From Mesorhizobium sp. SARCC-RB16n (lineage in GTDB: Bacteria; Pseudomonadota; Alphaproteobacteria; Rhizobiales; Rhizobiaceae), in the NCBI RefSeq assembly GCF_008520305.1, contig NZ_ML703279.1, forward strand, positions 62,001 through 126,000: a stretch of DNA of 64,000 nucleotides, read 5' to 3'. Shown in pieces: positions 695 to 59,126 of this stretch. Numbering within the stretch: position 1 is the first letter of the stretch; the number at the start of each line of letters is the position of its first letter. A program made the position numbers and the translations under genes. The notes beneath the pieces are model-generated. The model had not been told where the DNA came from. It ran no database searches and saw only the letters and a program-made list of their open reading frames with translations.

Positions 695-1537
695 GAAATA
701 CTCTGTCAGACCAGTTGCTACAGGCAGCAGCTTGGTAAGAGACGCCTCCGCCAGCCGTGTTGTAATATTCGAAGCTTGCCAATCACCCGCTGATCTCAGT
801 GAGCACAGCGGAAGCCTGACTGCTAGGATTGCGAAGCAAATTGCATGCCGGATTGACTACTATTTGCATTACACCGTTCGCCACGAACGGCCGGTCCGGC
901 TTGGACAGCGTTTGTCTGGTCCCAACGCATTTGTCCAACTCCGGCCAGACAGCGCAAATGCTGCAGTTTCGAAGCACTTTGACCTGAACTTGCGGAACAG
1001 GAACTACTTTAAACTAGCTAGTTGTCTCGACCCCCGAACACCATCGATCTGAAAGCCATCTTCTGGGACAGGAAGTTCCCCATTGCCATCAGCCCTTGCT
1101 CCGGTGAGTCGATTGCTGCGGCATTCCATTCGGGTGGGCCTTCCCCGAGAATCTGAACGAAAAGTCCAGCAGGTTGAGCTCACCATAGGCGCGGCGTGAC
1201 GTGATCGGCGCCAGGCACATGGAGTAGTGTGTCGAACTATTTGCCCGCCTTGATGGGCCGGTTGGCAAGCTGGTAGGTTGAGGACGAACCGAGATTGCTC
1301 GCCTCGCCCTGCAGGCCTGCGGCAGTTTTCGGCTCCTCGAGCAGGCGGGATTGCTTTGGGCGAGCCTTTTAAGACGAGCTGCCCATCTCCCCTTCTACAG
1401 GGCTGCCTCGGGAAGGTACGGGTGAGTCAAACTGCCAGGATAGGCAGTTTTCCCGAACAGCCCTCACGATTCCGGGAGACGGGCTGCCGTTGTGGCACGC
1501 CGGCGACGTTGCGTATTTGCGTGTCAAACGACGCAGG
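695..1537. other. No gene recognised
   Basis: Open frames here are short, overlap each other on both strands and show no motif I recognise. The stretch lies between truncated genes and the control region of the methyltransferase, and it is most simply read as decayed DNA. Confidence 0.5.
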
Positions 1538-1553
1538 TGTCGGGTCTGCGACA
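1538..1553 (+). promoter_or_regulatory. Possible NifA upstream activator site (TGT-N10-ACA)
   Basis: The sequence TGT-CGGGTCTGCG-ACA fits the NifA enhancer consensus TGT-N10-ACA exactly. It lies about 85 bases before an imperfect sigma-54 promoter and 175 bases before the methyltransferase start, the usual geometry for NifA-dependent genes. The motif is short and can occur by chance. Confidence 0.4.
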
Positions 1554-1637
1554 GGACTGTTTAGCGGCGTTCCTACTTTCTTCAGCCAAATCGTTGAAAG
1601 CAATTGAAAAATGTTTTCTTCGCCTCCTTCGGCCAAT

Positions 1638-1653
1638 TGGCACGAGCTTTGAA
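1638..1653 (+). promoter_or_regulatory. Imperfect sigma-54-type -24/-12 element
   Basis: TGGCACGAGCTTTGA matches the -24 half of the sigma-54 consensus (TGGCAC) and the spacing, but the -12 element reads GA where GC is expected. Its position between the NifA-like site and the methyltransferase gene is the main argument for it. The broken -12 dinucleotide makes activity doubtful. Confidence 0.3.
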
Positions 1654-1728
1654 GCTCTCGTAGTGGAGGCGCAGCAGGCGCCGATGGGCCGCCACATTCC
1701 ATATTTGTCGCTATACGGAGGAAATACC

Positions 1729-2436
1729 ATGCAAACCAAGGACCAACGCACCGCGCTGGAGCAAGCCGCACGAAAGCGCATCAAGGACTCTCATGCCCTC
1801 GACGGAGACGCCGGCCGCTTGGCGGAGTTCTATCGCGGATGGGCCAGTGCCTACGAGCTGGAGGTTGGCCGCGACGAATACTGCGGACCCGTGATCGTGG
1901 CGGAATTGGCGGGTGCCGTGCAGACGGCATATTTGGCCAGGGAGCGACCAGCCATCCCAATCCTGGACGCTGGCAGCGGAACAGGCCTCGTTGGCGTGCA
2001 ATTGGACCGCCTCGGCTTCCGGACGATCGACGGGCTGGATCTCTCCGAGGAGATGGCCGAAAAGGCCCGGCAAACCCAAGTCTACCGCCATATCCGAGCC
2101 GGTGTCGATCTAAACGGGCCGCTCTCTGGCTACCCCAGCGCGAGCTATTATATTACAGTCTGCTGCGGCGTCTTCACGCTCGGGCATGTCCGACCGGATG
2201 CGCTACGGGAGCTGGCTCGCGTCACGCGCCCGAATGGATTTGTTATCGTAAGCACCCGAAAAAGCTATGCGGACGCTACATGCTTTGAAGACGAGGTGCG
2301 GCATCTGCAGGATGAGGGCGTCCTTGTGCCGGCGCAGTGCTTAAACGACGGCAGGTACATCGCGGAAGAGGGCGCGCACTACTGGGTCTTCCGGGTACCC
2401 GAGAAGGCCAGCGCACCAGCGGAACACCGGTTGTGA
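1729..2436 (+). CDS. SAM-dependent class I methyltransferase
   Basis: This 235-residue protein has the Rossmann-fold methyltransferase signature: motif I ILDAGSGTGLVG for SAM binding, followed by an acidic loop (GLDLSEEM) that would contact the ribose, and a later VTRPNGFVIVST strand typical of motif III. I chose the ATG at 1729 because GGAGGAAA sits 6 to 7 bases upstream; the frame is open further upstream but that part looks non-coding. The substrate is unknown. It is the first gene of a group that includes SAM synthetase, an adenosine-kinase-like enzyme and methionine synthase, so its product S-adenosylhomocysteine could be recycled by neighbours, although no SAH hydrolase is present here. 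A NifA-like site and a weak sigma-54 element lie upstream. Confidence 0.85.
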   Translation: MQTKDQRTALEQAARKRIKDSHALDGDAGRLAEFYRGWASAYELEVGRDEYCGPVIVAELAGAVQTAYLARERPAIPILDAGSGTGLVGVQLDRLGFRTIDGLDLSEEMAEKARQTQVYRHIRAGVDLNGPLSGYPSASYYITVCCGVFTLGHVRPDALRELARVTRPNGFVIVSTRKSYADATCFEDEVRHLQDEGVLVPAQCLNDGRYIAEEGAHYWVFRVPEKASAPAEHRL

Positions 2437-2705
2437 TCACGCTTCCGAAAATCGCGCTGCCGAAATGGCAGCCGACGCCACGCGTCTTTGCCCCGGGGGT
2501 GAATTGCACGCCCCATGCTTCAGCACGTTTGATGAAACCCGATCGGGACGAGATGCTGTTTCTGGCTGCCAACCGCAGGGTGGTTTCCGTCGATCTCTTG
2601 AACGGCACCAGCCTCGGGCGCTCATGGTCTGAGCAATAGAATTCAACTCGGCCGCGAGAGCGCATTGGCCGAGCCTAACTGACGCGACTCAACAGGGGTG
2701 ACTTA
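2437..2705 (+). other. Methyltransferase-oxygenase spacer
   Basis: This gap contains a possible short frame ending at 2639 (TLPKIALPKWQP..., FLAANRRVVSVDLLNG) that I do not recognise. It has no convincing start or ribosome binding site. The region may be a small decayed gene between the methyltransferase and the oxygenase. Confidence 0.3.
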
Positions 2706-3740
2706 ATGACGAAACCGAATCTAGCCCAACTTGACGATAGGCTTCGAGCCCAGCGGCAGTCCTTCGAAAAATTCCCAGTTGTCGACATGGCTCCGCTGGT
2801 CGACGGAAGCGACAAGCGAAGCGTGGCGAAAGAGATCCGCTGGGCCCTGACCAATGTCGGGTTCATGTACGTCAAGAACCATGGTGTATGTGAAGAATTG
2901 GTGCATGAGACCTTTGCCCAGGCTCGCGCTTTCTTCGATCTGCCCGTCGACAAAAAAATGAAACTGCACATCAGCAATTCCGGCGTGGCGCTACACGGCT
3001 ATATCGAAGTGTTTGGCGAAAACACTGATCCTTCAAAGACCAAGGATCTCAAAGAGTGCTTCGACGTCGGTCCTGAGCGGTCGATTATCGAGGGCCCATT
3101 CTTCGGGCCCAACCAGTGGCCGGCCGCCCTGCCCGGTTTCCGACAGAGCGTGGTCGCCTATCACGAAGCGATGAAAGAGTTGTCAATGAAGATTCTGAGC
3201 GGAATCGCGCTCAGTCTGGATCTCCCTTCAGATTTCTTTGAACCTCGAATGAAGAACCCAATCACGATCCAGCGGTTACTACATTATCCGCCGCAAACCG
3301 GAGTCGTGGACGAGAGGATCATCGGCATTGGCGCGCACACCGACTACGGCACCCTCACCATTCTCGCGCAGGACAGTGTCGGCGGGCTACAAGTTATGAA
3401 CCGAGACGGCGCTTGGGTCGAGGGCACGCCCATTCCTGGGACCTTTGTCATCAATATCGGCGATCTGGTGCAGAAGCTTACCAACGACCTTTACCTAGCC
3501 AACTTGCATCGGGTGGTGAACACCTCGGGACGGGAACGCTATTCGATTCCATTCTTCATTGATGCCGATTACGACGCTGTTTTCGCGCCCCTGGAGAGCT
3601 GTGTCTCTGAGGCGAGGCCGGCCCGTTACCCACCGATCACCTGCGGCATGTATAAGTTTGAGCGCTTCGTCAAGACTTTCCCCCATTTGGAGCGGCGAAA
3701 ACGCATTCATCCCGCCGTGAGCCCGGAGAGCCACAAATGA
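2706..3740 (+). CDS. Isopenicillin N synthase-like 2-oxoglutarate/Fe(II) oxygenase
   Basis: The 344-residue protein has the two-part layout of this family: an N-terminal DIOX_N domain (FPVVDMAPLVDG near residue 23, GFMYVKNHGV near 52) and a C-terminal jelly-roll domain. The iron ligands are visible as H211-T-D213 and H268 (NLHRVVN), and R278-x-S280 (RYS) would bind the 2-oxoglutarate carboxylate. It therefore should be an active Fe(II) dioxygenase, but the substrate cannot be read from the sequence; the family includes isopenicillin N synthase, ACC oxidase and the bacterial ethylene-forming enzyme. The start has GGGGTGAC upstream. Its neighbours supply or use SAM, which suggests a product that is both methylated and oxidised. 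A fragment of a related gene lies at 245-375. Confidence 0.85.
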   Translation: MTKPNLAQLDDRLRAQRQSFEKFPVVDMAPLVDGSDKRSVAKEIRWALTNVGFMYVKNHGVCEELVHETFAQARAFFDLPVDKKMKLHISNSGVALHGYIEVFGENTDPSKTKDLKECFDVGPERSIIEGPFFGPNQWPAALPGFRQSVVAYHEAMKELSMKILSGIALSLDLPSDFFEPRMKNPITIQRLLHYPPQTGVVDERIIGIGAHTDYGTLTILAQDSVGGLQVMNRDGAWVEGTPIPGTFVINIGDLVQKLTNDLYLANLHRVVNTSGRERYSIPFFIDADYDAVFAPLESCVSEARPARYPPITCGMYKFERFVKTFPHLERRKRIHPAVSPESHK

Positions 3741-4067
3741 TCTGAATAGCTCAAACCAAGTGGAACGCGAAATCACCATGAACAAACTTTGCATCCGGCG
3801 GCATCGCTCAGTCCAAAGCCTGCCACGGTCTTCATCGGCGAGGTTAGATTGCCGTTCACGAACTGCTTTTAGGCGGGGGCGGTAGGAGCGGACGACGCTC
3901 AACTCATCGCATTCATGTACGCGACTGGCTCGATCTTCACCAACTAATAAGCCGAAGGGCACCCCGGTGCGCGTTCCGGTGCATTCGAGGTACTTGGCAT
4001 CGCCGACCAGTAAGGCGGACTAAACGAAATCTATCTTACAACTTATTACCTGCAGCAAGGCTATCCC
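3741..4067. other. Spacer upstream of metK
   Basis: No gene is evident. I looked for a SAM-II type riboswitch, common before alphaproteobacterial met genes, and did not see one. The DNA may carry a separate promoter for metK. Confidence 0.4.
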
Positions 4068-5264
4068 ATGGCTAGACAGTTCGTATTCTCCTCTGAATCC
4101 GTCGGCGCCGGACATCCGGACAAGTTGGCCGACAACATCTCGGATGCTATTCTCGATGCGGTCCTCCTCAAGGATCCTAAGGCGCGCGTCGCCTGTGAAG
4201 CGCTGGTGAAAAACTGTGAAACGTTGGTGAAGACCGGAATGGTCGTGCTGGCTGGCGAGATCACCAGTGATGCCCAAATCGACTATAGCCAAGTTGCCCG
4301 CGATACCATTCTCGACATCGGATATGACGATGATGCAATCGGGTTTGATGGTCGGCGTTGCGCTGTCGTTCTGGCTATCAACGAACAGTCGTCTGATATC
4401 AGCCAAGGCGTCGAGCAAGGACGAGGGATTGATCTCGACCAGGGAGCGGGCGATCAGGGCGTCATGTTCGGGTACGCTTGCAGGGAGACCGATACACTGA
4501 TGCCCTTGCCAATCCAGCTCGCTCACCACCTGACGAAAAGGCAGGCAGAAGTCCGCAAAGCAGGACAGCTAAGCTGGCTGCGCCCCGATGTGAAATCGCA
4601 AGTCTCGGTACGTTATGAAGGTTTGCGCCCTGTGGGGCTGGATACCATCGTCCTGTCGACCCAACATGATGAGGAGGTCTCACAGGAAGCCCTGCGGGAA
4701 GGCGTCATTGAGGAGATCATCAAGCCGGTCTTGCCGACCGACCTGGACACGACAGGGATTAGGCTCCTGGTCAACCCGACAGGACGGTTCGTGGTCGGTG
4801 GGCCGCGCGGTGACTGCGGCCTCACTGGGCGCAAGATCATCGTCGACTCCTACGGCGGGATGGGACGCCACGGCGGCGGTGCCTTTTCGGGCAAGGACCC
4901 CTCAAAGGTTGACCGTTCGGCCGCGTATGCGGCCCGCTACGTCGCCAAGAATGTCGTGGCTGGGGGACTTGCGGAGGTCTGCGAAGTGCAGATTGCTTAC
5001 GCAATCGGCGTAGCCGCACCGGTCTCGGTCTTCGTCAACACCTTCGGGACGGCGACGATCGAAGAAGAAAGGATCGAGCGCCTCATTGTCGAGTTGTTCG
5101 ACCTGAGGCCAAAAGGTATTATTGAGATGCTTGACCTGTTGCGCCCGATATACCGTAAGACCGCGACCTACGGGCACTTCGGCCGTGAAGAGCCTGAGTT
5201 CACCTGGGAGAGGACGGACAGAGCCGATTTCTTGAGGCGGGAGGCAGGTCTGGCTGCTGCGTGA
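4068..5264 (+). CDS. metK: S-adenosylmethionine synthetase
   Basis: This 398-residue protein makes SAM from methionine and ATP in the cytoplasm. The N-terminal motif [18 protein letters not shown] corresponds to the ATP and methionine site, and [19 protein letters not shown] is the hallmark phosphate-binding loop in the last third; full family length is present. The ATG follows AAGG with a 7-base gap. It diverges somewhat from the usual housekeeping motif ([13 protein letters not shown] rather than GHPDKICDQISDA), so it is probably an additional, specialised copy. It stands between the oxygenase and an adenosine-kinase-like gene, and it would feed the nearby methyltransferase and other SAM users such as Nod-factor methylation. 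Confidence 0.95.
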
Positions 5265-5366
5265 GGCTGCTGCCGGATCAATCTGAAGCGCTGGACCATT
5301 GTAGAATTGAAAGGTCCCCGCGCGGGCATGGCAAGAAGCCGGCCTGGGTTTTTGGCGGAGACATTG

Positions 5367-6359
5367 ATGCCGGATTATGACGTGCTTTGCATCGGCAATG
5401 CTATTGTCGACATCATCGCCCAGTGCGAGGAGGACTTCCTCGAGACCAACGGCATCATCAAGGGCGCGATGAACCTCATCGACACCCACCGCGCCGAATT
5501 GCTCTACAGCCGCATGGGCCCGGCGATCGAGGCCTCCGGCGGCAGCGCCGGCAACACGGCGGCCGGTGTCGCCTCCTTCGGCGGACGCGCCGCCTTCTTC
5601 GGCAAGGTCTCCAACGATGCGTTGGGCGAAATCTATGCGCACGATATCCACGCGCAGGGTGTTGCCTTCGACACGAGGCCGCTCGAGGGCGAGCCGCCGA
5701 CGGCGCGCTCGATGATCTTCGTCACCCCCGACGGCGAGCGCTCGATGAACACCTATCTCGGCGCCTGCGTCGAACTCGGGCCGGAAGATGTCGAGGCCCA
5801 CAAGGCGGCGGGCGCCAAGGTGACCTATTTCGAGGGCTATCTGTGGGATCCGCCGCGCGCCAAGGAAGCCATCCGGCAGACGGCCAGGCTGGCGCACGCG
5901 GCCGGGCGAGAAGTCTCGATGACCTTGTCGGACCCGTTCTGCGTCGACCGCTACCGCGACGAGTTCCTCGACCTGATGCGTTCAGGTACGGTCGACATCG
6001 TTTTTGCCAACAGCCACGAGATCAAGTCGCTTTACCAGACTTCGTCGTTCGACGAGGCGGTGGCGCAGATCCGCAAGGATTGCAAGATCGCCGCGGTGAC
6101 CCGTTCCGAAAAGGGCTCGGTCATCGTGCGCGGCGACGAGACCGTGATCATAAAGGCGACCGCCATCAAGGAGCTTGTCGACACGACGGGCGCCGGCGAT
6201 CTCTACGCCGCCGGTTTCCTGCATGGCTATACACAGGGACGCGACCTCCAGACCTGCGGCGATCTTGGCTCACTGGCGGCCGGATTGGTGATCCAGCAGA
6301 TCGGCCCAAGACCGCGGCAGAACCTGCGCAAAGAGGCCGAGCAGGCGGGGCTGTTGTAG
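5367..6359 (+). CDS. Adenosine kinase-like PfkB-family kinase
   Basis: The 330-residue protein belongs to the ribokinase/PfkB family. It has the N-terminal Gly-rich substrate site (ASGGSAGNTAAGVASFGG) and the C-terminal signature DTTGAGD with catalytic D278. Bacterial proteins with this pattern are usually called adenosine kinase; the sequence alone does not exclude another nucleoside or sugar. I chose the ATG at 5367 because GGCGGAG lies 6 bases upstream; an in-frame extension to 5307 has no such signal. Phosphorylating adenosine removes the by-product of SAH breakdown, so the gene fits the methyl cycle formed with metK, the methyltransferase and metE. Its regular high-GC codon use is more chromosomal in style than that of the preceding oxygenase. 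Confidence 0.88.
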   Translation: MPDYDVLCIGNAIVDIIAQCEEDFLETNGIIKGAMNLIDTHRAELLYSRMGPAIEASGGSAGNTAAGVASFGGRAAFFGKVSNDALGEIYAHDIHAQGVAFDTRPLEGEPPTARSMIFVTPDGERSMNTYLGACVELGPEDVEAHKAAGAKVTYFEGYLWDPPRAKEAIRQTARLAHAAGREVSMTLSDPFCVDRYRDEFLDLMRSGTVDIVFANSHEIKSLYQTSSFDEAVAQIRKDCKIAAVTRSEKGSVIVRGDETVIIKATAIKELVDTTGAGDLYAAGFLHGYTQGRDLQTCGDLGSLAAGLVIQQIGPRPRQNLRKEAEQAGLL

Positions 6360-7000
6360 ACACTTCTGGAAGACTTGCCCGCTGACGGCTTCGATCACCG
6401 GCGCGAGGGACGAAAGCACTGAGCGGGCGACAGCAATGCAGCGTTTTGTCGTGTCCGCGACTATGGGTTCGGGCTCATTTTCTGCTGCGTTCCCGTTAAA
6501 CCGCTGAAATAAAAGTCGCAAAATCTTCTCTGCGGCTGCCTTCGTGTTGGCACAAATTTTGATCTTCTGGTTTTGAGACAAGGGACTGCCGAGAGGCATT
6601 TGATGGCGCGGAGCGAACCGGAACGAAGGTAGCAACCGACCTTGTCAGGTCAGCATCAGCTACTGCGCGCATAACGAGGCGCCGAGTGGTAGCGGAGGAG
6701 ATTGCGCCGAAATGATCGCTGCGATTTACGTGGGCTCCCTATCGCACCAGCTCGGATCGTACCGGCTGGGTCTGCTTGGCCGACCTGATCGAGCAGCCGA
6801 TCCGGCGTCGCCGTGGCCGCCAACGACCCACTTGTGGTGTGTTTGGGTAGATCTTCGTTTCCAGGGCACGCCAAATTGCCAATCGGACGCCGGAGATGTC
6901 CGGTGGCACTGACAGAGGCAAGGGCAGGCGTAGCAAAGCGGCGATTGCGAGGGTGCTGCGTGACGACCGGCGTTGAATGCTCCATTGATGTAGGACGCAG
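6360..7000. other. No gene recognised
   Basis: The frames in this 640-base gap are short and overlapping. TGGCACAAATTTTGA near 6548 resembles the imperfect sigma-54 element at 1638, again with GA instead of GC at -12, and I do not count it as a promoter. Confidence 0.4.
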
Positions 7001-7690
7001 ATGAAGCCGTTAATCCTGATCTGTTCGCAGGATGTCGAGTTCTACCTGTTCTTCAGCCACGTCCTGGAGGTGGACGGCTTCGCAACCGTACTGGCCGGTG
7101 GCGTCGAGGATGTGGTCCAGCAGGCGACTGAGTGCGAGCCGCAGGCTGTTGTCCTGGACTGCCAACCGGCTACCGCTACCGGCCCGGCGATCTGCGCCCG
7201 GCTGAAAGGCGAGCTGCAAACCGATGCACTGCCCGTGATCGCTCTGATCGCTTCCGGCGCCGAGCACCAGCAGCTCGATCTGCTCAAGGCGGGCATAGAC
7301 GAAACTTTCTTGCGGCCCTTCGCGCCGGCTAAATTGCTCGCGTACCTGAAGGGGAAACTGCGGACTCGCCTGCTGCCCAACGGCGGGAACGACGAGGCGC
7401 TGACATGCGGTCAGCTTAGTATGGAGCCCAGAAGCCGTCGGGTGCACTGCAGTGACCAGCAGCTCCATCTTGGCCCACTCGAGTTCAACATGCTGCGCCA
7501 CCTGATGGAAAACCCTGGCAAGGTATGCAGCCGCGAGGAACTGGTTAGCGCCGCTTGGCCGGAAAAAATCTTTGTTGGTCCGCGCACAGTTGACGTCCAT
7601 GTCAGCCGACTGAGAAAGGCGCTCTCCCCCCACAACGTAATCCGAACCGTACGCTCGGCCGGTTATGCGCTCGAAGAGCAGGAAATCTGA
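7001..7690 (+). CDS. OmpR/PhoB-family response regulator with atypical receiver
   Basis: The 229-residue protein has an N-terminal receiver-like domain (residues 1-120) and a C-terminal winged helix (about 130-225: LGPLEFNMLRHLMENPGKVCSRE, then RTVDVHVSRLRKAL and RTVRSAGYAL). D53 aligns with the phosphorylated aspartate, but the acidic pair is reduced to a single D11 and the conserved lysine is replaced by arginine (FLRPF). It may therefore be activated without normal phosphorylation. No histidine kinase is adjacent. In rhizobia, orphan regulators of this shape include TtsI, which controls protein secretion genes; I cannot confirm that identity. It may simply regulate the methyl-cycle genes. 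Confidence 0.85.
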   Translation: MKPLILICSQDVEFYLFFSHVLEVDGFATVLAGGVEDVVQQATECEPQAVVLDCQPATATGPAICARLKGELQTDALPVIALIASGAEHQQLDLLKAGIDETFLRPFAPAKLLAYLKGKLRTRLLPNGGNDEALTCGQLSMEPRSRRVHCSDQQLHLGPLEFNMLRHLMENPGKVCSREELVSAAWPEKIFVGPRTVDVHVSRLRKALSPHNVIRTVRSAGYALEEQEI

Positions 7691-8334
7691 AAGGGCGATC
7701 GCGGCCCATGGTGTAGTAGCTCGGCCGAGCAAAAGCTGCTCGCGAGCGCGCCCTCAATAGCGCTGAAGCGAGCGGGCGGCTTTGCAGCGTCGTGGACGCT
7801 TCCGGTAAAGTTTGGGGCGATATAACCCCCCTAATGCATGTTGCCCGGAAGTGTCCTCGGTTCCGGGATAACGACATGCATAAAATCAGAAGCTTACAGC
7901 AGGTCGGGCGAATCCTATTCGCCGCGACATGCTGTAGACTTGTGACTACCGCAATCGACGCAATAACGAGCTCTTGCGTGGAATGATCCGGTGGAAGCAA
8001 TCAGTCGGCCCTTTCGGACGAAATGGAGGCCATCACCCTCCCGCGCATAGGGTTCAAACGGGCATCACATTACGACTCGCAATGTTCAGATGAGCAAATC
8101 CGACCGCACGCTGTTAGAGATGCGCTCCGACCTGACGGCATCGTATTGGCAAGGTGGTCGGTATATTGACCGACGAGTCGGAAGAAGCATCGGACCCGTC
8201 AAATCAATGCCCTCAGCGGACTGTCACATATTTCTAACGAAATGGCGTTGCCCGTTCGCCTCTTGGGTTCACCCAATTTCGATCCGCTTCAGCGCAGTGT
8301 ATCTGGCCCCCACCGGCGAGGGTATACACTTTTG
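7691..8334. other. No gene recognised between convergent regulator and metE
   Basis: This 640-base stretch separates two convergent genes. I see no coding frame with family similarity and no clear hairpin terminator. Confidence 0.4.
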
Positions 8335-10674
8335 CTAGGCGGCCCTCGGTGCGCCTCTCAGAAAACGCGCGGCTTCGACCATGTTGATGAGTGCCGGACG
8401 GACTTCCTCCCACCGACGTGTCTTCAAGCCGCAATCGGGGTTAACCCAAATCTGACTGTCGCAAAGCCGCTGTCGCGCCTGCGAGAGCAGGTTCGTCATC
8501 TCGTCGACTCCCGGCACCCGCGGTGAGTGGATATCATAAATGCCCGGTCCGATCTCGTTCGGATAATTGAACTTTTCGAAGGCGTTGAGCAACTCCATCT
8601 GCGAGCGCGAGGTTTCGATGGAGATCACATCGGCATCCATCGCCGCGATCGCGTCTATGATGTCGTTGAATTCGGAGTAGCACATGTGCGTGTGGATCTG
8701 GGTCACATCATACACGCCCGTCGAAGCGAGCCGAAAGCACTCGATGGCCCATTCGAGATAATGCTTCCACTCGGACTTGCGCAGCGGCAAGCCCTCGCGC
8801 AGTGCAGCTTCGTCGATTTGGATCACCTTGGCGCCGGCGCTTTCGAGATCATCCACTTCGCCACGGAGGGCGAGCCCGATCTGGCGGCAAACGACCGAGC
8901 GTGCGAGATCGTCGCGTACAAAGGACCAGTTCAGAATCGTCACCGGGCCGGTGAGCATGCCCTTAACGGGTTTATCTGTTAGCGATTGAGCGTACCGCCA
9001 CCAGCGCACCGTCATCGGATTGGGACGCGACACGTCGCCAAAGATGATCGGCGGCCGCACATAACGTGACCCGTAGCTCTGCACCCAGGCGTGCTGCGTG
9101 AAGGCGAATCCGGAAAGCTGCTCACCGAAATATTGCACCATGTCGTTTCGTTCAAACTCACCATGCACCAGCACGTCCAACCCGATCTCGTCCTGCCAAC
9201 GGATGGTTGCCTCGATTTCCTTCCGGAGGAACACCTCATAGTCGACGTAGCTCAGTTCTCCCCTCGCATGGGCCGCGCGCGCATTGCGAATCTCGGGTGT
9301 TTGCGGGAAGGAGCCGATGGTCGTAGTCGGGAATGGCGGTAGGCGGAGCGTTTGGTCCTGAAGCCTGGAGCGCTCAGCAAAGCGGCTTTTCCTGCGCATC
9401 ATGTCTTCGTCGATAAAGGCGAGGCGTCCTTCGACCAGCGGATCATGCACCTTGGGGGACGTCAAACGCGCAGCGGCTGCTTGGGTAGAGGACTCCAGCT
9501 CTGCTGAAACCGCCTCCCGGCCTTCGGACAAGGCCCTGGCGATCGTGGTCAGTTCGTCCATCTTCTGCGCCGCGAATGCGAGCCACGACTTTATGTCGCT
9601 ATCGAGCGCTGTTTCCAGTTCCAGGTCGATCGGCACATGCAGAAGGGAACACGAAGGCGCGATCTCCACTCGCTCCAGTGGCCAGCCCGCGACGACCGGC
9701 TTGATGCGGTCAAGGATGAGGCGCAGGTTCGCACGCCAGACGTTGCGACCGTCGATCAGGCCAAGCGAAAGCACCATGTCCTTTGGCGCAAGCCGGCCGA
9801 CCGCCTCCAATTGTTCAGGAGCGCGTGCAAGATCGAGATGCAAGCCCGCCACAGGAAGCGAAAGAGCGGTCTCGATATTGCCATTCAAACCGCCGAAATA
9901 GGTGGCGAGCATGATCTTTAGCTCCGGGGCCGCTTTCGAAAGACGGTCGTAGGCAAAATTGAACGCGTCTTGCTCGTTTGGAATGAGGTCGAGCACGAGC
10001 GCCGGCTCATCGATTTGCACCCAGTCTGCGCCCGCCACTTTCAGGCGGCGCAGGAGTTCCTCATAGACCGGCAGCAACCGCGGGAGCAGCGCAATTGGGT
10101 TGAAGTCCCGATTAGGCGACTTGGCCAGCTTGAGGAAGGTGACGGGCCCAAGAATGACCGGGCGGGTGTGAACGCCGAACGCCCTACCCTCAAGGAAATG
10201 ATCCACCGGCTTTGCCGACGACAAAGCAAAGTCCTGGTCGTCGGCGAGCTCCGGGACCATGTAGTGGTAGTTGGTGTCGAACCACTTGGTCATTTCCAGC
10301 GCGGTAACCGCGTTACCGTGATTGGCATTTTTCAGTCCGGCAGCCTCTCCTTGGCTCCCACGCGCCATGGCAAAATAGGTGTCGAGCGAGACTTCCCCCT
10401 CGCTCCAGCCATAACGTGGCGGCACAGCGCCGACCATTGTTGCCGTGTCGAGCACATGATCGTAAAGCGAGAAGTCGTTGCACGGAATTATGGTCACGCC
10501 ACGGTCGCATTGTTCAGTCCAGTTCGCGACACGCAGCGCCCGCGCCGTTTCGAGAAGGTCGGCAGCGGAAGATTTTCGCGACCAGTAGGCCTCCAGCGCG
10601 CGCTTTAACTCGCGACGACGTCCAATGCGAGGCACGCCAAGTGTGGCAACAGGAACTTTCCGAGAGAGAGACAT
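8335..10674 (-). CDS. metE: Cobalamin-independent methionine synthase
   Basis: MetE transfers a methyl group from 5-methyltetrahydropteroyltri-glutamate to homocysteine, giving methionine without vitamin B12. The protein is 779 residues, normal for the family. The zinc and homocysteine site is intact: H663 and C665 (QIHTHMCYSEF), E687 (SIETSRS) and C748 (NPDCGLKTR) have the same spacing as H641, C643, E665 and C726 of E. coli MetE. I chose the ATG at 10674 (MSLSRKVPVATLG); the frame extends upstream, but only through the leader and riboswitch. A cobalamin riboswitch lies about 100 bases upstream, so expression should fall when B12 is plentiful. The gene closes the methyl cycle with metK and the methyltransferase. 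Confidence 0.96.
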   Translation of the reverse strand: MSLSRKVPVATLGVPRIGRRRELKRALEAYWSRKSSAADLLETARALRVANWTEQCDRGVTIIPCNDFSLYDHVLDTATMVGAVPPRYGWSEGEVSLDTYFAMARGSQGEAAGLKNANHGNAVTALEMTKWFDTNYHYMVPELADDQDFALSSAKPVDHFLEGRAFGVHTRPVILGPVTFLKLAKSPNRDFNPIALLPRLLPVYEELLRRLKVAGADWVQIDEPALVLDLIPNEQDAFNFAYDRLSKAAPELKIMLATYFGGLNGNIETALSLPVAGLHLDLARAPEQLEAVGRLAPKDMVLSLGLIDGRNVWRANLRLILDRIKPVVAGWPLERVEIAPSCSLLHVPIDLELETALDSDIKSWLAFAAQKMDELTTIARALSEGREAVSAELESSTQAAAARLTSPKVHDPLVEGRLAFIDEDMMRRKSRFAERSRLQDQTLRLPPFPTTTIGSFPQTPEIRNARAAHARGELSYVDYEVFLRKEIEATIRWQDEIGLDVLVHGEFERNDMVQYFGEQLSGFAFTQHAWVQSYGSRYVRPPIIFGDVSRPNPMTVRWWRYAQSLTDKPVKGMLTGPVTILNWSFVRDDLARSVVCRQIGLALRGEVDDLESAGAKVIQIDEAALREGLPLRKSEWKHYLEWAIECFRLASTGVYDVTQIHTHMCYSEFNDIIDAIAAMDADVISIETSRSQMELLNAFEKFNYPNEIGPGIYDIHSPRVPGVDEMTNLLSQARQRLCDSQIWVNPDCGLKTRRWEEVRPALINMVEAARFLRGAPRAA

Positions 10675-10773
10675 ACCATACCCCGATGATTGGGGGTGGA
10701 CGCAAGGCAGACGTTGGCAAGCAGACCGGCCGGTTACCACGCCCACCGAGACACCCCGCCTGTGGACCTTGTT

Positions 10774-10965
10774 CGCCGAGGCAGGTCTCCTGGCTCGCGG
10801 GTCGACACCTCTGCCCGTCTTCCCGAGGCGCATGGCCTCAGTGACATGAGTGGGCTTGGCTCGCCGCTTACAGTTGCGGGGGCAGCGCCGGCATCTTCAC
10901 CGGCTTCCCTCTTAGCTCTGATGCGAGTAACCGGATCAGAGAACCACGACAAGCCGACACTGGCC
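10774..10965 (-). promoter_or_regulatory. Cobalamin riboswitch upstream of metE
   Basis: Read on the minus strand, this leader contains the known conserved pieces in order: GGGAAGCCGGTG, then CTGCCCCCGCAACTGTAA, then GTCACTGAGG, GGGAAGACGGG and finally the B12 box AGCCAGGAGACCTGCC (10779-10794). Together they define a cobalamin (adenosylcobalamin-type) riboswitch. It lies directly before metE, the B12-independent enzyme, where repression by B12 makes sense. The outer limits are approximate because the closing stem was judged by eye. Confidence 0.93.
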
Positions 10966-11466
10966 GAAGAGAAGACTCCTGTCAAGCGGACATAAACAAA
11001 TCTTTATGCCGTTATCCGATTTTGGTGTCGCTGGTGAGGCGCAGATAGCCGCGATGTCGATTGAATGCGATCGTACTTAAACAGCGCGCGGGCAAGCCCT
11101 TCCGCTTCCTTCCCACTGTCCTGATGGCGAACCGTCGCAGGGCCATACTGCCTGTTGTTGGGGTTGACTTCGACCATGCTGGAAGCAACATTTCCGATAT
11201 ACTCGAAATGAGCATAGGCAGATGCAATCACACGCCATTGCCCGAGCATCCGGCAATATACGCGAGGGAACGGGTCGGTCGCCCGGCTTCGCGGTTGGCA
11301 TCCCGCTGTCGAGCTTAACCCGAGCAACTCGCTCAACTGGTGCAACAAGACTGGAGGAGAGTTGTCGACCAGCACCAGTCGGCCAGCCATGCGGCAGCTT
11401 GATGCCTGCAATCTCACCCAAGCCCCCAACCACCCACTACCATCACCATCATGGAAGCAATGCGTT

Positions 11467-12216
11467 ATGGAAGCACCTGCGCTTTGGCGTCGGCACCTCG
11501 ATGACACGTTCGAGTTTCTCAACCAGATCCGCAAGAGTTCAAGCCAGCAGGAAATCTGTCAGCACCTGATTTCCTATGCCCAGCGCTTTGGCGCCAGAAA
11601 CGTGCTGGCAGGACCGATCCCGCCGCCGCGTGCGCTGAGGCGCGAGCAGATTTCCCATGTGCTGCTTGACGCCTGGCCGCAGCAATGGTCGGAGCGCTAT
11701 TTCTCCAAAGGCTACCTTCATCGCGATCCTACCATTCAGCTTGTGAAGCGTGGGGTCACCCCCTTCCGGTGGAGCGAGATGGATCAAATTTCCCGGGTTT
11801 GTTCCTTCGGCCGACAGATCATGGCGGAGGCATCAGAGTTTAATCTGCGTGACGGCTTCACGATTCCGTTCGCGACATTGAACGGACAGCCGGTTGGATT
11901 TTCCGTTGCAGGGGAGAAGCTCGAGCCGGGTCCTCACGACCGTCTCGCCTTTCAGTTCGTCGCCGCCTGCGCCTTCGGATGCGCGGCCCTTCTTGCGGAT
12001 GGCAAACAGGCCTCCAAACCAGTGCGTCTGTCACCTCGACAACAGGACGTCCTGCGCTGGGTTGCCGAAGGGCTTACTGTCGTCGAGGTCGCTGATCGCC
12101 TGAACGTCAGCCGCAACACGGCAGATACGCATCTGCGATTGGTGCGCCAGAGGCTTGGCGTGACAAGCAACGTGCAGGCCGTCACGACAGCTTTCCGCCT
12201 GGGGCTGATCAGCTAG
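11467..12216 (+). CDS. traR: TraR-like LuxR-family quorum-sensing regulator, copy without traI
   Basis: The 249-residue protein has an N-terminal autoinducer-binding domain with the conserved aromatic and acidic residues of the ligand pocket (WSERYFSKGYLHRDP, then FRWSEM) and a C-terminal LuxR helix-turn-helix (LSPRQQDVLRWVAEGLTVVEVADRLNVS). It should bind an acyl-homoserine lactone and activate tra-box promoters. The ATG at 11467 gives the usual family length, although its ribosome binding site (GGAAG) is weak; the frame extends upstream. It differs from the copy at 18979 by about ten residues, including V/I and R/H changes inside the helix-turn-helix. No synthase gene follows. Mesorhizobium loti R7A also carries two traR genes, one beside a defective traI. 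Confidence 0.9.
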   Translation: MEAPALWRRHLDDTFEFLNQIRKSSSQQEICQHLISYAQRFGARNVLAGPIPPPRALRREQISHVLLDAWPQQWSERYFSKGYLHRDPTIQLVKRGVTPFRWSEMDQISRVCSFGRQIMAEASEFNLRDGFTIPFATLNGQPVGFSVAGEKLEPGPHDRLAFQFVAACAFGCAALLADGKQASKPVRLSPRQQDVLRWVAEGLTVVEVADRLNVSRNTADTHLRLVRQRLGVTSNVQAVTTAFRLGLIS

Positions 12217-18532: not shown

Positions 18533-18978
18533 CCCGTTGGCGGGTTAAAGATTGCTCGGGAGGGCAAGACGGCTGGACTTAGGATCGGCGGGCTGATTCC
18601 CAATCGGCTGCGGACTGCTCAGTTTCTTCCGCTTGAGCCAGCCGGACTGTCGCAGGGCCATACTGCCTGTTGTTGGGGGTTGACTCCGACGATGCTGGAA
18701 GCAACATTCTTGATATACTCGAAATGAGCATAGGCAGATGCAATCACACGCCATTGCCCGAGCATCCAGCAATATACGAGGGAACGGATCGGTCGGTCGG
18801 CTTCGCGATTGGCATCCTGCTGTACCTTACCCCGAGCAACTTGCTCAACTGGTGCAACAAGAATCGAGGAGAGTTGTCGACCGGCACCGGTCGACCAGCC
18901 ATGCGGCAGCTTGATGCCTGCAATCCACCCCAAGCCCCCAACCACCCACTACCATCACCATCATGGAAGCAATGCGTT

Positions 18979-19728
18979 ATGGAAGCACCTGCGCTTTGGC
19001 GTCGGCACCTCGATGACACGTTCGAGTTTCTCAATCAGATCCGCAAGAGTTCAAGCCAGCAGGAAATCTGTCAGCACCTGATTTCCTATGCCCAGCGCTT
19101 TGGCGCCAGAAACGTGCTGGCAGGACCGATCCCGCCGCCGCGTGCGCTGAGGCGCGAGCAGATTTCCGATGTGCTGCTTGACGCCTGGCCGCAGCAATGG
19201 TCGGAGCGCTATTTCTCCAAAGGCTATCTCCATCGCGATCCTACCATTCAGCTTGTGAAGCGTGGGGTCACGCCCTTCCGGTGGAGCGAGATGGATCAAA
19301 TTTTCCGGGTTTGTTCTTTTGGCCGACAGATCATGGCGGAGGCATCAGAGTTTAATCTGCGTGACGGCTTCACGGTTCCGTTCGCGACACTGAACGGACA
19401 GCCTGTTGGATTTTCTGTTGCAGGGGAGAAGCTCGAGCCGGGTCCTCACGACCGTCTCGCCTTTCAGTTGGTCGCCGCCTGCGCCTTCGGATGCGCGGCC
19501 CTTCTTGCGGATGGCAAACAGGCCTCGACACCGGTGCGTCTGTCGCCTCGACAACAGGACGTCCTGCGCTGGGTTGCCGAAGGCCTCACCGTCGTCGAGA
19601 TCGCCGATCACCTGAACATCAGCCGCAACACGGCAGATACGCATCTGCGATTGGTGCGCCAGAGGCTCGGCGTGACAAGCAACGTGCAGGCCGTCACGAC
19701 AGCTTTCCGCCTGGGGCTGATCAGCTAG
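18979..19728 (+). CDS. traR: TraR-like LuxR-family quorum-sensing regulator, copy paired with traI
   Basis: The 249-residue regulator has the autoinducer-binding domain (WSERYFSKGYLHRDP and FRWSEM, residues about 75-110) and a C-terminal helix-turn-helix (VVEIADHLNISRNTADTHLRL). It is followed 75 bases later by the lactone synthase gene, the standard luxR-luxI arrangement. In ICEMlSym(R7A), TraR with its lactone activates traI1 and the genes for FseA, and the anti-activator QseM binds TraR; a qseM-like gene is present here at 58403. The copy at 11467 is about 96 percent identical, so both may respond to the same signal. Confidence 0.93.
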   Translation: MEAPALWRRHLDDTFEFLNQIRKSSSQQEICQHLISYAQRFGARNVLAGPIPPPRALRREQISDVLLDAWPQQWSERYFSKGYLHRDPTIQLVKRGVTPFRWSEMDQIFRVCSFGRQIMAEASEFNLRDGFTVPFATLNGQPVGFSVAGEKLEPGPHDRLAFQLVAACAFGCAALLADGKQASTPVRLSPRQQDVLRWVAEGLTVVEIADHLNISRNTADTHLRLVRQRLGVTSNVQAVTTAFRLGLIS

Positions 19729-19730
19729 CC

Positions 19731-19746
19731 TCACGCAATCGCGTGA
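19731..19746 (+). promoter_or_regulatory. 16-bp dyad between traR and traI, candidate tra box
   Basis: TCACGC-AATC-GCGTGA is perfectly symmetric and ends 57 bases before the traI ATG. LuxR-type proteins bind 16 to 20 bp palindromes at about this distance from luxI genes. No protein-binding evidence is available; a hairpin is the alternative. Confidence 0.45.
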
Positions 19747-19803
19747 TGCCGCATCGGTCCGCGATGAACCATTGGTTGGCCTCCAAACTGGAGGACAACC
19801 GAG

Positions 19804-20406
19804 ATGCTTCATGTCGTCACGTCGCACAATGCCGACGAATATCAGGCGGAATTGGATCAGGCGTTCCGTCTTCGCCACAAGGTGTTTGTCGAGGAAAAGG
19901 GCTGGACGGACCTGTGGCGTGAAGACGGTCGTGAAGTCGACCGCTTTGACGACAGGCGTGCCGTCCATATGCTCTTCACCGAGCAGGACCGTGTGGTCGG
20001 CTACCAACGCTTGCTGCCGTCGACGCGACCTCATCTTCTGTCGGACATTCTACCGGAGTTGTGCGAAGGCGCCCGTCCAGTGGGAGAAAACATCTGGGAA
20101 TGGTCGCGTTACTGCGTCGAGCCGCAATATCGCGAACGGGGACGGATGCTGAGCCCGGTTGCCAATGCGCTGTTGTCCGGCATCGTCGAGTGGGGCCTGG
20201 GTAGCGAGGTGGACACAATCATTATCGAAATGAACCCGCTTTGGCTGCTGCGCCTGGTTCAGTTGCATTTCAAGGTGACGCCTCTGGGTCTGCCGAAAAT
20301 GATCGCCGGGGAAGAGACGGTCGCGGTGACAGCCCGTTTTGATGAACGCACGTTGCAAAGGCTTCGTGAGACACGCAGCCCAAGCAACAATAAATCCGCA
20401 TCGTAG
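19804..20406 (+). CDS. traI: Acyl-homoserine lactone synthase
   Basis: The 200-residue protein is a LuxI-family enzyme that joins SAM and an acyl-carrier-protein fatty acid to make the quorum signal. The conserved N-terminal residues are present: FRLRHKVFVEEKGW, followed by the acidic REVDRFDD segment, and EWSRYCVEP with the later arginine. Full family length is present, and the start has GGAGG upstream. It lies directly after traR, and a candidate tra box sits in the spacer, so it is probably autoinduced. It also draws on the SAM pool. In R7A the genes for FseA follow traI1; here a LysR fragment follows instead. Confidence 0.95.
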   Translation: MLHVVTSHNADEYQAELDQAFRLRHKVFVEEKGWTDLWREDGREVDRFDDRRAVHMLFTEQDRVVGYQRLLPSTRPHLLSDILPELCEGARPVGENIWEWSRYCVEPQYRERGRMLSPVANALLSGIVEWGLGSEVDTIIIEMNPLWLLRLVQLHFKVTPLGLPKMIAGEETVAVTARFDERTLQRLRETRSPSNNKSAS

Positions 20407-56680: not shown

Positions 56681-56962
56681 TCAGCGCGACTTGCCGGCAT
56701 AGGCCGGCGCGCGGGCCGCATGCGGCTTGGCCGGCGGAATGTCGGTGGCGTTTGCGTCGCTGGTGGACGTGCGCGCGCCGAGATCGGTCCAGGCACGCAG
56801 GTCATCGATGTCATAGAGGACGCGGCCGCCGATCTTTCGGTATTTTGGACCGGTGCCATAGGTCCGGTGTTTTTCCAGTGTCCTGGCGCAGAGGCCAACG
56901 ATAGGGGCGGCCTCCTTGGTCCTAAGATATTTTTGGGGCGCGTCCGCGGGACCCTTCGACAT
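56681..56962 (-). CDS. rdfS: RdfS-like excisionase (AlpA/MerR-type helix-turn-helix)
   Basis: The 93-residue protein has a winged helix-turn-helix (YLRTKEAAPIVGLCARTLEK, GPKYRKIGGRVLYDIDDLRAW), the form of recombination directionality factors. In ICEMlSym(R7A), RdfS binds the attachment sites, turns the integrase towards excision and precedes the transfer genes, and FseA activates it. Here it is upstream of repA and downstream of the fseA-like genes, the same relationship. The ATG at 56962 is preferred over the extension to 57055 because the family begins there. Confidence 0.85.
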   Translation of the reverse strand: MSKGPADAPQKYLRTKEAAPIVGLCARTLEKHRTYGTGPKYRKIGGRVLYDIDDLRAWTDLGARTSTSDANATDIPPAKPHAARAPAYAGKSR

Positions 56963-57469
56963 CGCTCGATCTCCATTCGGTTCTGCTGTCGTCCTGGCCT
57001 GCCGGGACGCGCGAAACGGACGATGGCCGAAATGAGAAAAAGCGAGGGAGGGCAAAGATGAAGGTGGGTGTTTTTACGCCCCTTCCGGCTGCACCGGCGT
57101 GCGCGCTCACGTTGCCGCAGAGCTCGTCTGGGCGAGCCCGGCCGATACGTCTTTGAGACCGCAGGCGAGTCGTGATCAATACCAAGATCTGATGATCGGC
57201 CTCGGATCCTTGCTGTGGCCTCTTACCGCCAAAGGGGGACGTCATGCCGCTCGTCAGCTTCTGTCTGGCCGAAGATAAAGCCGGAAATGGCAACTCGCTT
57301 TTGATCGCGAAGCGCTCCACCTGTCTGTGGAGTTCATCCGCTTCGGTTCTACCCCCGTGTCCAAAGGGTGGATGTCAGTTGAGGATTTCTGGCGTGGACA
57401 CCGCGCAATCCTCTCTATCGCCAGGCGTTGGATTGCTTCACTGCGTTCCTGGCGGCTGAGAGCCCAGCT
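56963..57469. other. rdfS upstream region
   Basis: This 500-base gap should contain the FseA-dependent promoter of rdfS. I see no reliable operator or gene within it. Confidence 0.4.
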
Positions 57470-58057
57470 TCACAACTCGGTTTTGCGGCGGCGGCCTTGA
57501 GGATAGGCGATAAGGCCGCGATAGCCCCCGGCGATCAGGCGGTCGGCCCGTCGCAGGATCGCCCGTATCTTGTGGCGAAGGTGATGATCGCGCCAGTCAC
57601 GCGGTGCGATGGGCTCGCGCGCCAGCAGCTCCTCCGCGAGCCGTCGGTAGGGAGCCCCCGCGCGCCTTCCATCGACAGCGCGCAAATTGAGGATGTGCCT
57701 CAACTTGCTTTGCTGAGGTAGGGAACCGTGGCGGACGCCGGCCGGTCGACCATTCAACGCGCGCCAGAAGCCGCGCGCGGCGTCGAGCCGTATTTCAAAA
57801 TTCGCATCGAGCGGCAGGATGATGGCGTTGATGCCGCGCAGGCCGTCAGGTTCGCTAGAGACGATGTGATGTGTCACGGATGCTGACGGCCAGAGAGTAT
57901 GAACTTGCCCGGCTTCCGTCCACTGAGCCGTCCTGAGTTGGCTAAGTCGAACGGCCGGCAGCGACGATGAAGCGCCAGCCCTCAACCTCGTTGCGCGCAG
58001 AACCCGTGGCGAGGCCTGTTCTGTCCAGACAATGTGTTCCGATAAGGGGGGCCCGTC
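57470..58057 (-). CDS. fseA: FseA, C-terminal part (DUF2285), read by +1 frameshift
   Basis: The frame is open from 58057 to 57470 and reads DGPPLSEHIVWTEQASPRVL and on into a DUF2285 domain (LPLDANFEIRLDAARGFWRA, QQSKLRHILNLRAVDG, YRRLAEELL). It has no ATG or GTG near its beginning; the first start-like codon is a TTG at 57985, already inside the conserved region. It therefore depends on ribosomes that leave the upstream frame at its TGA stop. Joined, the two parts give about 264 residues. In R7A the two parts are called Msi172 and Msi171, and their fusion FseA activates rdfS. Confidence 0.85.
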   Translation of the reverse strand, partial: DGPPLSEHIVWTEQASPRVLRATRLRAGASSSLPAVRLSQLRTAQWTEAGQVHTLWPSASVTHHIVSSEPDGLRGINAIILPLDANFEIRLDAARGFWRALNGRPAGVRHGSLPQQSKLRHILNLRAVDGRRAGAPYRRLAEELLAREPIAPRDWRDHHLRHKIRAILRRADRLIAGGYRGLIAYPQGRRRKTEL

Positions 58058-58265
58058 ACCAGGAATCGCGAAATCGCGCGCCCCAACGAGCGGCGAAGTC
58101 GGTCGAGCCAGCGATTTCTCTTGTCGCCAGCGGACCTGACGCCAGCCGCTCTAATTCGGCGAGAAAATCAGCGTTCCGGATCAGATACTCCGCGGCAAAC
58201 GCGTCGGCTTCGTAGCCGCGCATGTGCTCGTATCCGGCCGGATCGGTCCAATCGCTGAGCGACAT
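58056..58265 (-). CDS. fseA: FseA, N-terminal part (DUF6499)
   Basis: The 69-residue frame MSLSDWTDPAGYEHMRGYEA continues with AAEYLIRNADFLAELERL and WGARFRDSW, the DUF6499 pattern, and ends at TGA (58056-58058). Reading one base on, the same DNA continues in the DUF2285 frame. By itself it would be an isolated N-terminal domain of a transcription activator. It lies 137 bases after qseM and in the same direction as rdfS. A 17-base palindrome lies between the two genes. Confidence 0.85.
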   Translation of the reverse strand: MSLSDWTDPAGYEHMRGYEADAFAAEYLIRNADFLAELERLASGPLATREIAGSTDFAARWGARFRDSW

Positions 58266-58365: not shown

Positions 58366-58382
58366 TTTGCTGAATCAGCAAA
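58366..58382. promoter_or_regulatory. 17-bp palindrome upstream of fseA
   Basis: TTTGCTGA-A-TCAGCAAA is perfectly symmetric and lies about 100 bases before the fseA start. It overlaps another dyad (AGCAAA-CCGC-TTTGCT, 58356-58371). The position suits an operator for a LuxR- or XRE-type regulator, or the end of qseM transcription. Confidence 0.5.
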
Positions 58383-58402: not shown

Positions 58403-58744
58403 TCAGTGTGGTGCGCCGCCGGCCAGGAGGTATCGATAGCCATTGGTCGTCATCCACCGGGCGCGAGCAAGATGCGTTTCCCATGCCCGGAATGCCCGTT
58501 CCGGCTCCTTTGCGGGATCGATATGCAGAACGATTCTGGCGACCTCGCGCCAATCTGCGTCTTCGGCCGCAGCATCGAGAAGGCGGATGTAGGTGAGCAG
58601 CCGCTCCTCATCATAGCCGGTCAGGATGGGGGCGTCTGGGGCTACGTCGGCGACATCAGGATCGAGGAGAGGTTTAAGCATGGCAATCTCGCGCGCCAAC
58701 ACCTTCGTCGATGTGAGGCCAAATCCTGATTTGGATGCCTGCAT
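58403..58744 (-). CDS. qseM: QseM-like DUF2285 antiactivator
   Basis: The 113-residue protein has one DUF2285-like domain (LTGYDEERLLTYIRLLDAAA, DWREVARIVLHIDPA, RAWETHLARARWMTTNGYRY). In ICEMlSym(R7A), QseM binds both TraR and FseA and keeps excision off in most cells, and its gene is divergent from qseC. The layout is the same here. The start is uncertain: 58744 is used; an ATG at 58681 would remove 21 residues that carry less family character. Confidence 0.85.
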   Translation of the reverse strand: MQASKSGFGLTSTKVLAREIAMLKPLLDPDVADVAPDAPILTGYDEERLLTYIRLLDAAAEDADWREVARIVLHIDPAKEPERAFRAWETHLARARWMTTNGYRYLLAGGAPH

Positions 58745-58865: not shown

Positions 58866-59126
58866 ATGCAAAAGACGCTTCGATCGCCAAGACATTTGCG
58901 TCTTGTCCAACTGATCGTTGAAAAGCGTAGGAAAGCCGGCCTGAGTCAGGCTGGTCTGGCAAAGGCGCTGGACAGATACCAATCGGTGGTCGCGGCCATC
59001 GAATCAGGAGGCCGACGAATCGACGTTGTCGAATTTATCGATCTGGCCGAAACGATCGGCTTCGATCCGCATGAGGTACTGAGTGAGGTCATCGCGGTTC
59101 GAAGCGCGAAGTCAAAGCATCGCTGA
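58866..59126 (+). CDS. qseC: QseC-like XRE-family repressor
   Basis: The 86-residue protein has an XRE helix-turn-helix (LIVEKRRKAGLSQAGLAKAL, RYQSVVAAIESGGRRID) covering nearly all of it. In R7A, QseC represses qseM and itself by binding operators between them. It stands divergent from the qseM-like gene here, with a long dyad between. No other domain is present. Confidence 0.88.
   Translation: MQKTLRSPRHLRLVQLIVEKRRKAGLSQAGLAKALDRYQSVVAAIESGGRRIDVVEFIDLAETIGFDPHEVLSEVIAVRSAKSKHR

Follow-up and report, generated by a model that had tools for sequence, protein, structure and literature searches.

A split fseA-like gene of Mesorhizobium sp. SARCC-RB16n is probably joined by +1 frameshifting at a conserved TTT codon

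A gene whose two halves lie in different reading frames raises the question of whether ribosomes join them into one protein, and at which bases they would do so. Such a locus lies in a 64,000-nucleotide stretch of Mesorhizobium sp. SARCC-RB16n (contig NZ_ML703279.1, positions 62,001 to 126,000), hereafter the window (Table 1). The initial annotation described it, at 57470-58265, as an FseA-like activator that needs +1 frameshifting, with a DUF6499 frame ending at TGA 58056, a DUF2285 frame one base on that has no start of its own before a conserved segment, and family sequence kept in both halves. We found the bases arranged exactly in this way: the DUF6499 frame stops in the context TCC TGG TGA C, through which the +1 frame runs open to 57470, and profile matches were above the cut-off for both the 0-frame product (PF20109, E 4.3e-12) and the +1-frame product (PF10074, E 2.1e-26). 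The first ATG, GTG or TTG of the +1 frame is reached only 28 codons past a conserved TTT-C, and the start-less stretch in between includes HIVWTEQASPRVLRAT, which is conserved in relatives.

Table 1. Features of the split fseA locus and its surroundings, with positions in the window.
Feature	Position	Strand	Details
traR-like quorum-sensing gene (LuxR type)	18670-19728	+	
traI-like quorum-sensing gene (LuxI type)	19804-20406	+	
rdfS-like excisionase (HTH_17)	56681..56962	-	79-94% identical in 17/17 relatives
Candidate FseA box, CGTAAA-N16-TTTGCC	57051..57078	-	Upstream of rdfS
fseA part 2, DUF2285 (PF10074)	57470..58069	-	+1 frame; first in-frame start TTG 57985
fseA part 1, DUF6499 (PF20109)	58056..58265	-	ATG 58265; 0-frame stop TGA 58058-58056
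+1 frameshift site, TGG GGC GCG CGA TTT C	58070..58085	-	Slippery TTT 58073-58071; skipped base C 58070
Perfect 17-bp palindrome TTTGCTGAATCAGCAAA, arms of 8	58366..58382		Between qseM and fseA; candidate operator
qseM-like lone DUF2285 antiactivator	58403..58681	-	PF10074, E 4e-6
qseC-like HTH regulator, divergent from qseM	58866..59126	+	

Sixteen related loci were gathered by one protein search of genome contigs (two of them, L010 and L014, are at least 97% alike); the records are of Mesorhizobium in 14 cases, and of Aminobacter and Chelativorans in one each. The same +1 offset between DUF6499 and DUF2285 is kept in 16/16, and also in plasmid pMc1192 of M. ciceri. Across 17 sequences (the window and L001-L017 without L014), dN/dS (Nei-Gojobori, Jukes-Cantor) of the 28 codons between the junction and the first start was 0.29 in the +1 frame, as against 1.43 and 1.21 when the identical bases were read in the other two frames; it was 0.28 for the first part of the gene and 0.26 for the rest beyond the first start. 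The +1 frame is thus selected as protein before any start codon, which matches the prediction of frameshifting.

Family searches placed DUF6499 in 17/289 genomes of the class, 43/398 of the phylum and 61/297 of the order. The wider panel began as 171 rows (the window and L001-L170) and ended as 158 distinct sequences, after omission of second copies (L019, L020, L021 and L023, of L012, L006, L001 and L015, respectively), of three rows that were unclear, had two stops or met a contig end (L099, L104 and L150), and of six near-identical rows, L014 among them; five weak family-search rows (one each from genomes G742, G902 and G846, two from G813) were also left out. The panel holds 115 genes with the +1 split, 35 fused genes and 8 others, of which six have no detected DUF2285, one (L047) has a +2 offset and one (L095) continues in the same frame after a stop.

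The panel also points to the place of the shift. In all 16 relatives the 0 frame carries TGG GGN NNN CGA TTT C, with its stop 15, 18, 33 or 195 bases beyond this motif, and TGG GGN NNN NNN TTT is present in 108/115 of the +1 split genes, the seven without this canonical site being L035, L055, L097, L160, L164, L165 and L166. The base after TTT is C in 102 of the 108 and T in the other 6; the +1 frame runs through the site uninterrupted in 107/108, and that of L044 is broken further on. Among fused genes that have a WG, TTT stands at the corresponding place in 2/27. The motif of window and panel is the same as the published shift site of R7A, namely UUU with a conserved Trp as the fourth codon 5' and then a Gly codon (PMC5009743). 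The 0 frame of four split genes (L033, L042, L060 and L061) continues for 636-711 bases past TTT before it meets a stop, and an unshifted ribosome on these would make a long alternative protein.

At the site, the Phe is TTT in 108/108, compared with 25% elsewhere in those genes, and an Arg preceding it is CGA in 65/77 (10.7% elsewhere in those genes); binomial tests on these counts overstate independence, since the panel is made up of related sequences. When the set is reduced to 64 representatives at 70% identity, CGA accounts for 31/37 of the preceding Arg codons. The Gly codon is GGG in 75/108 (12% elsewhere), and a Leu two codons before TTT is TTG in 48/84 (11% elsewhere). This codon usage, over 108 genes, is evidence that CGA before UUU is part of the signal. 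For release factor 2, it has been suggested that +1 shifting is promoted by weaker pairing in the E site (PMC5009743), and the wording "CGA codon" does not appear in the portion of that review examined. Should CGA exert its effect by pairing weakly in the E site, FseA would offer a natural test of how the E site controls +1 shifting where no stop codon is present at the shift site.

A Shine-Dalgarno (SD)-like element appears to add to the signal in most of the family. With an alphaproteobacterial consensus as the 16S tail, pairing was stronger than the gene's own synonymous mean in 84/108 sites, and outside the WGAR group (92 sites) it averaged -8.8 against -6.1 expected. The 16 WGAR sites averaged -6.3 against -6.8, and the best duplex of the window, at -4.7, falls short of the -6.9 expected from synonymous sequences. 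Because this element is weaker in the window, frameshift efficiency there may be lower. RNA structure gave no sign of a general stimulator across the 108 genes (mean z of 0.08 on the downstream side of the site and -0.07 on the upstream side), with z below -2 in 1/108 downstream and 7/108 upstream.

Two separate proteins, with the DUF2285 part made by its own or by coupled initiation, would also account for a split of this kind, and rihF1b and rihF1a of Azorhizobium caulinodans are stated to be two separate proteins (PMC9601964). In the window, TTG 57985 could open a DUF2285 protein of 171 amino acids; over the 108 canonical-site genes, 20 reach a +1 start codon within fewer than 15 codons, and a +1-frame start lies upstream of TTT in 68, with none there in the window. 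Yet only in the +1 frame is the stretch of 28 codons ahead of TTG 57985 conserved as protein, the 35 fused genes of the panel hold both domains in one frame, and separate initiation leaves the strict use of TTT unexplained, so that we consider this reading very improbable.

The initial annotation had put the shift at the stop itself, in TCC-TGG-TGA-C. The mechanism there would be slow termination at UGA with slippage on TGG. The two frames do overlap at TGG-TGA-C, and termination is slow in a TGA-C context, as in prfB. Such a shift would need tRNA-Trp on UGG to re-pair with GGU, however, and TGG directly precedes the 0-frame stop in the window alone (1/108), the stop lying anywhere from 9 to 711 bases past TTT (median 54; more than 60 in 48/108). 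Given this variable distance and the single TGG-stop, TGG-TGA-C was rejected as the conserved shift site, a role that falls to the TTT-C at 58073-58070, just upstream; we regard a shift at the stop, even one peculiar to the window, as highly improbable. A sequencing error at 58055-58060, which the initial annotation had raised, or a decayed gene, would likewise leave frames one base apart, but the offset recurs in 16/16 relatives, in the Mesorhizobium plasmid and in 115/158 panel sequences and therefore is no sequencing error, and dN/dS of 0.26-0.29 in all three segments speaks against decay, so that the chance of either is close to nil.

With the offset kept, the +1 frame under selection and the site conserved, the proposal of an FseA-like activator that needs +1 frameshifting is well supported, and we conclude with high confidence that the locus is the fseA of a Mesorhizobium-type conjugative element, expressed through programmed +1 frameshifting that is presumably of low frequency, as in R7A. 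Translation of DUF6499 would proceed in the 0 frame up to TGG GGC GCG CGA TTT. Once UUU occupies the P site, tRNA-Phe, whose anticodon GAA prefers UUC, would slip by one base onto UUC, probably aided by the weak E-site pairing of CGA and, for the majority of family members, also by the SD-like element. Reading would then continue in the +1 frame as ...WGARF|AIPGDGPP..., and ribosomes that do not slip would terminate four codons on, at TGA. The joined protein would be expected to bind a box before rdfS and to switch on excision and transfer, and QseM would be expected to restrain it. With the shift placed for the clade of the window, reporter constructs can be designed around the correct bases.

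The initial annotation had contrasted the position next to qseM and rdfS with one after traI, but the place is not special: a match to rdfS follows fseA in 17/17 relatives, and a match to qseM is found at the fseA loci of 14/17. In R7A, msi172-msi171 are described as sharing an operon with traI2 and qseM-qseC (PMC5882170). The gap between fseA and rdfS (56963-57469) is about 370 bases longer than in most relatives, and is common to L001 at 71% identity.

Upstream of rdfS, the relatives carry AGCAAA-N16-TTTGCC in 11/17, with N15 in two more, and TTTGCC is exact in 16/17; the candidate box of the window has the right hexamer exact and CGTAAA for AGCAAA on the left. These hexamer letters are those of our alignment and not of PMC10359603, in which the FseA box is given as inverted hexamers 16 bp apart, the right one 62-67 bases before rdfS. 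The candidate has the published geometry, at about 90 bases before rdfS as against the published 62-67 (PMC10359603). Allowing two mismatches, the pattern occurs 4 times in the window, compared with 4.8 expected by chance; the weight of the candidate lies in its position and conservation. On the other side of fseA, about 110 bp before the gene, much of the core of the palindrome recurs in aligned relatives, and 0.22 matches are expected at up to 3 mismatches; it is a candidate operator for fseA, for quorum sensing or otherwise.

Elsewhere, the window contains a trb-type conjugation cluster and a DUF3363 gene that we take to be a relaxase. Two LuxR-type regulators with an autoinducer domain were observed (11362-12216 and 18670-20406), one of them followed by a LuxI-type synthase. 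Possible cargo lies at 1492-10833, comprising genes for a methyltransferase, a 2OG-Fe(II) oxygenase, S-adenosylmethionine synthetase, a PfkB kinase and cobalamin-independent methionine synthase, which possibly belong to one sulfur or methyl-group pathway.

The clade of the window also departs from the family in its protein sequence. The helix-2 motif of DUF6499 (within 58265-58071) reads AAEYLIRN as against AWEFLRRN, with A, E, L, R37 and N kept and W32 and R36 missing; neither of these two residues is present in any of the panel's 16 WGARF sequences, that of the window among them, or in L012. In R7A FseA, activation was lost with almost every alanine substitution made in the helix-2 region (PMC10359603). 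The same paper used AWEFLRRN as a curation filter, not stated as a definition, and excluded sequences without a distinct motif from its FseA database; because such sequences were removed, the clade of the window may have been left out of it.

The activator diverges fast between its conserved neighbours, QseM and RdfS. Against the window, the two parts of FseA have median amino-acid identities of 62% and 60% (17/17 loci), compared with 92% for QseM (14/17 loci) and 90% for RdfS (17/17). Median pN is 0.229 and 0.251 for the FseA parts, 0.036 for QseM and 0.053 for RdfS. FseA thus exceeds QseM six- to sevenfold and RdfS four- to fivefold, their synonymous divergence being similar (median pS 0.51 and 0.64, 0.60 and 0.47, respectively). 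One possible account, which we hold only tentatively and think rather unlikely to be right in full, is that the family's shift signal is a decoding cassette that depends chiefly on CGA in the E site beside UUU-C and can do without its booster, the SD-like UGGGGG, and that the clade of the window weakened the booster, kept GCG CGA TTT C and lost W32 and R36, FseA alone being retuned for each element.

Among known systems, pMc1192 of Mesorhizobium ciceri CC1192 (436545-437340) has the same gene order and the same site, TGG GGC GCG CGA TTT C, and in it DUF6499 and DUF2285 are annotated as two genes, as in the split of the window; its FseA parts differ from those of the window (61% and 65% identical), and its fseA-rdfS gap is about 370 bases shorter. 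More distantly, the joined protein is of similar length to RovC of Yersinia (PDB 6xz5, 252 residues) and aligns with it at residues 190-250 of both in a weak match (E 0.0073), a relationship of FseA stated in PMC10359603; unlike the fseA of the window, RovC is a single chain with no split reported, and it activates a type VI secretion system (PMC10359603). The reference system is FseA (msi172-msi171) of ICEMlSymR7A in Mesorhizobium japonicum R7A, compared here through its published descriptions (PMC5009743, PMC10359603, PMC5882170). The window shares with it DUF6499 and DUF2285 joined by a +1 shift at UUU and rdfS as the target (both predicted in the window), and QseM and QseC alongside. It differs in having WGARF with UGGGGC, as against the WGL encoded by UGGGGG in PMC10359603, in the helix-2 motif, and in its arrangement, with no traI2 directly upstream and fseA between qseM and rdfS. 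With 4709 FseA homologues published, about 61% of them split with a conserved +1 site (PMC10359603), the gene of the window is a new member of that family, set apart by its WGAR site, its helix 2 and its pace of change; judged from its sequence, this is a known device in a new relative, with the shift placed elsewhere than first proposed.
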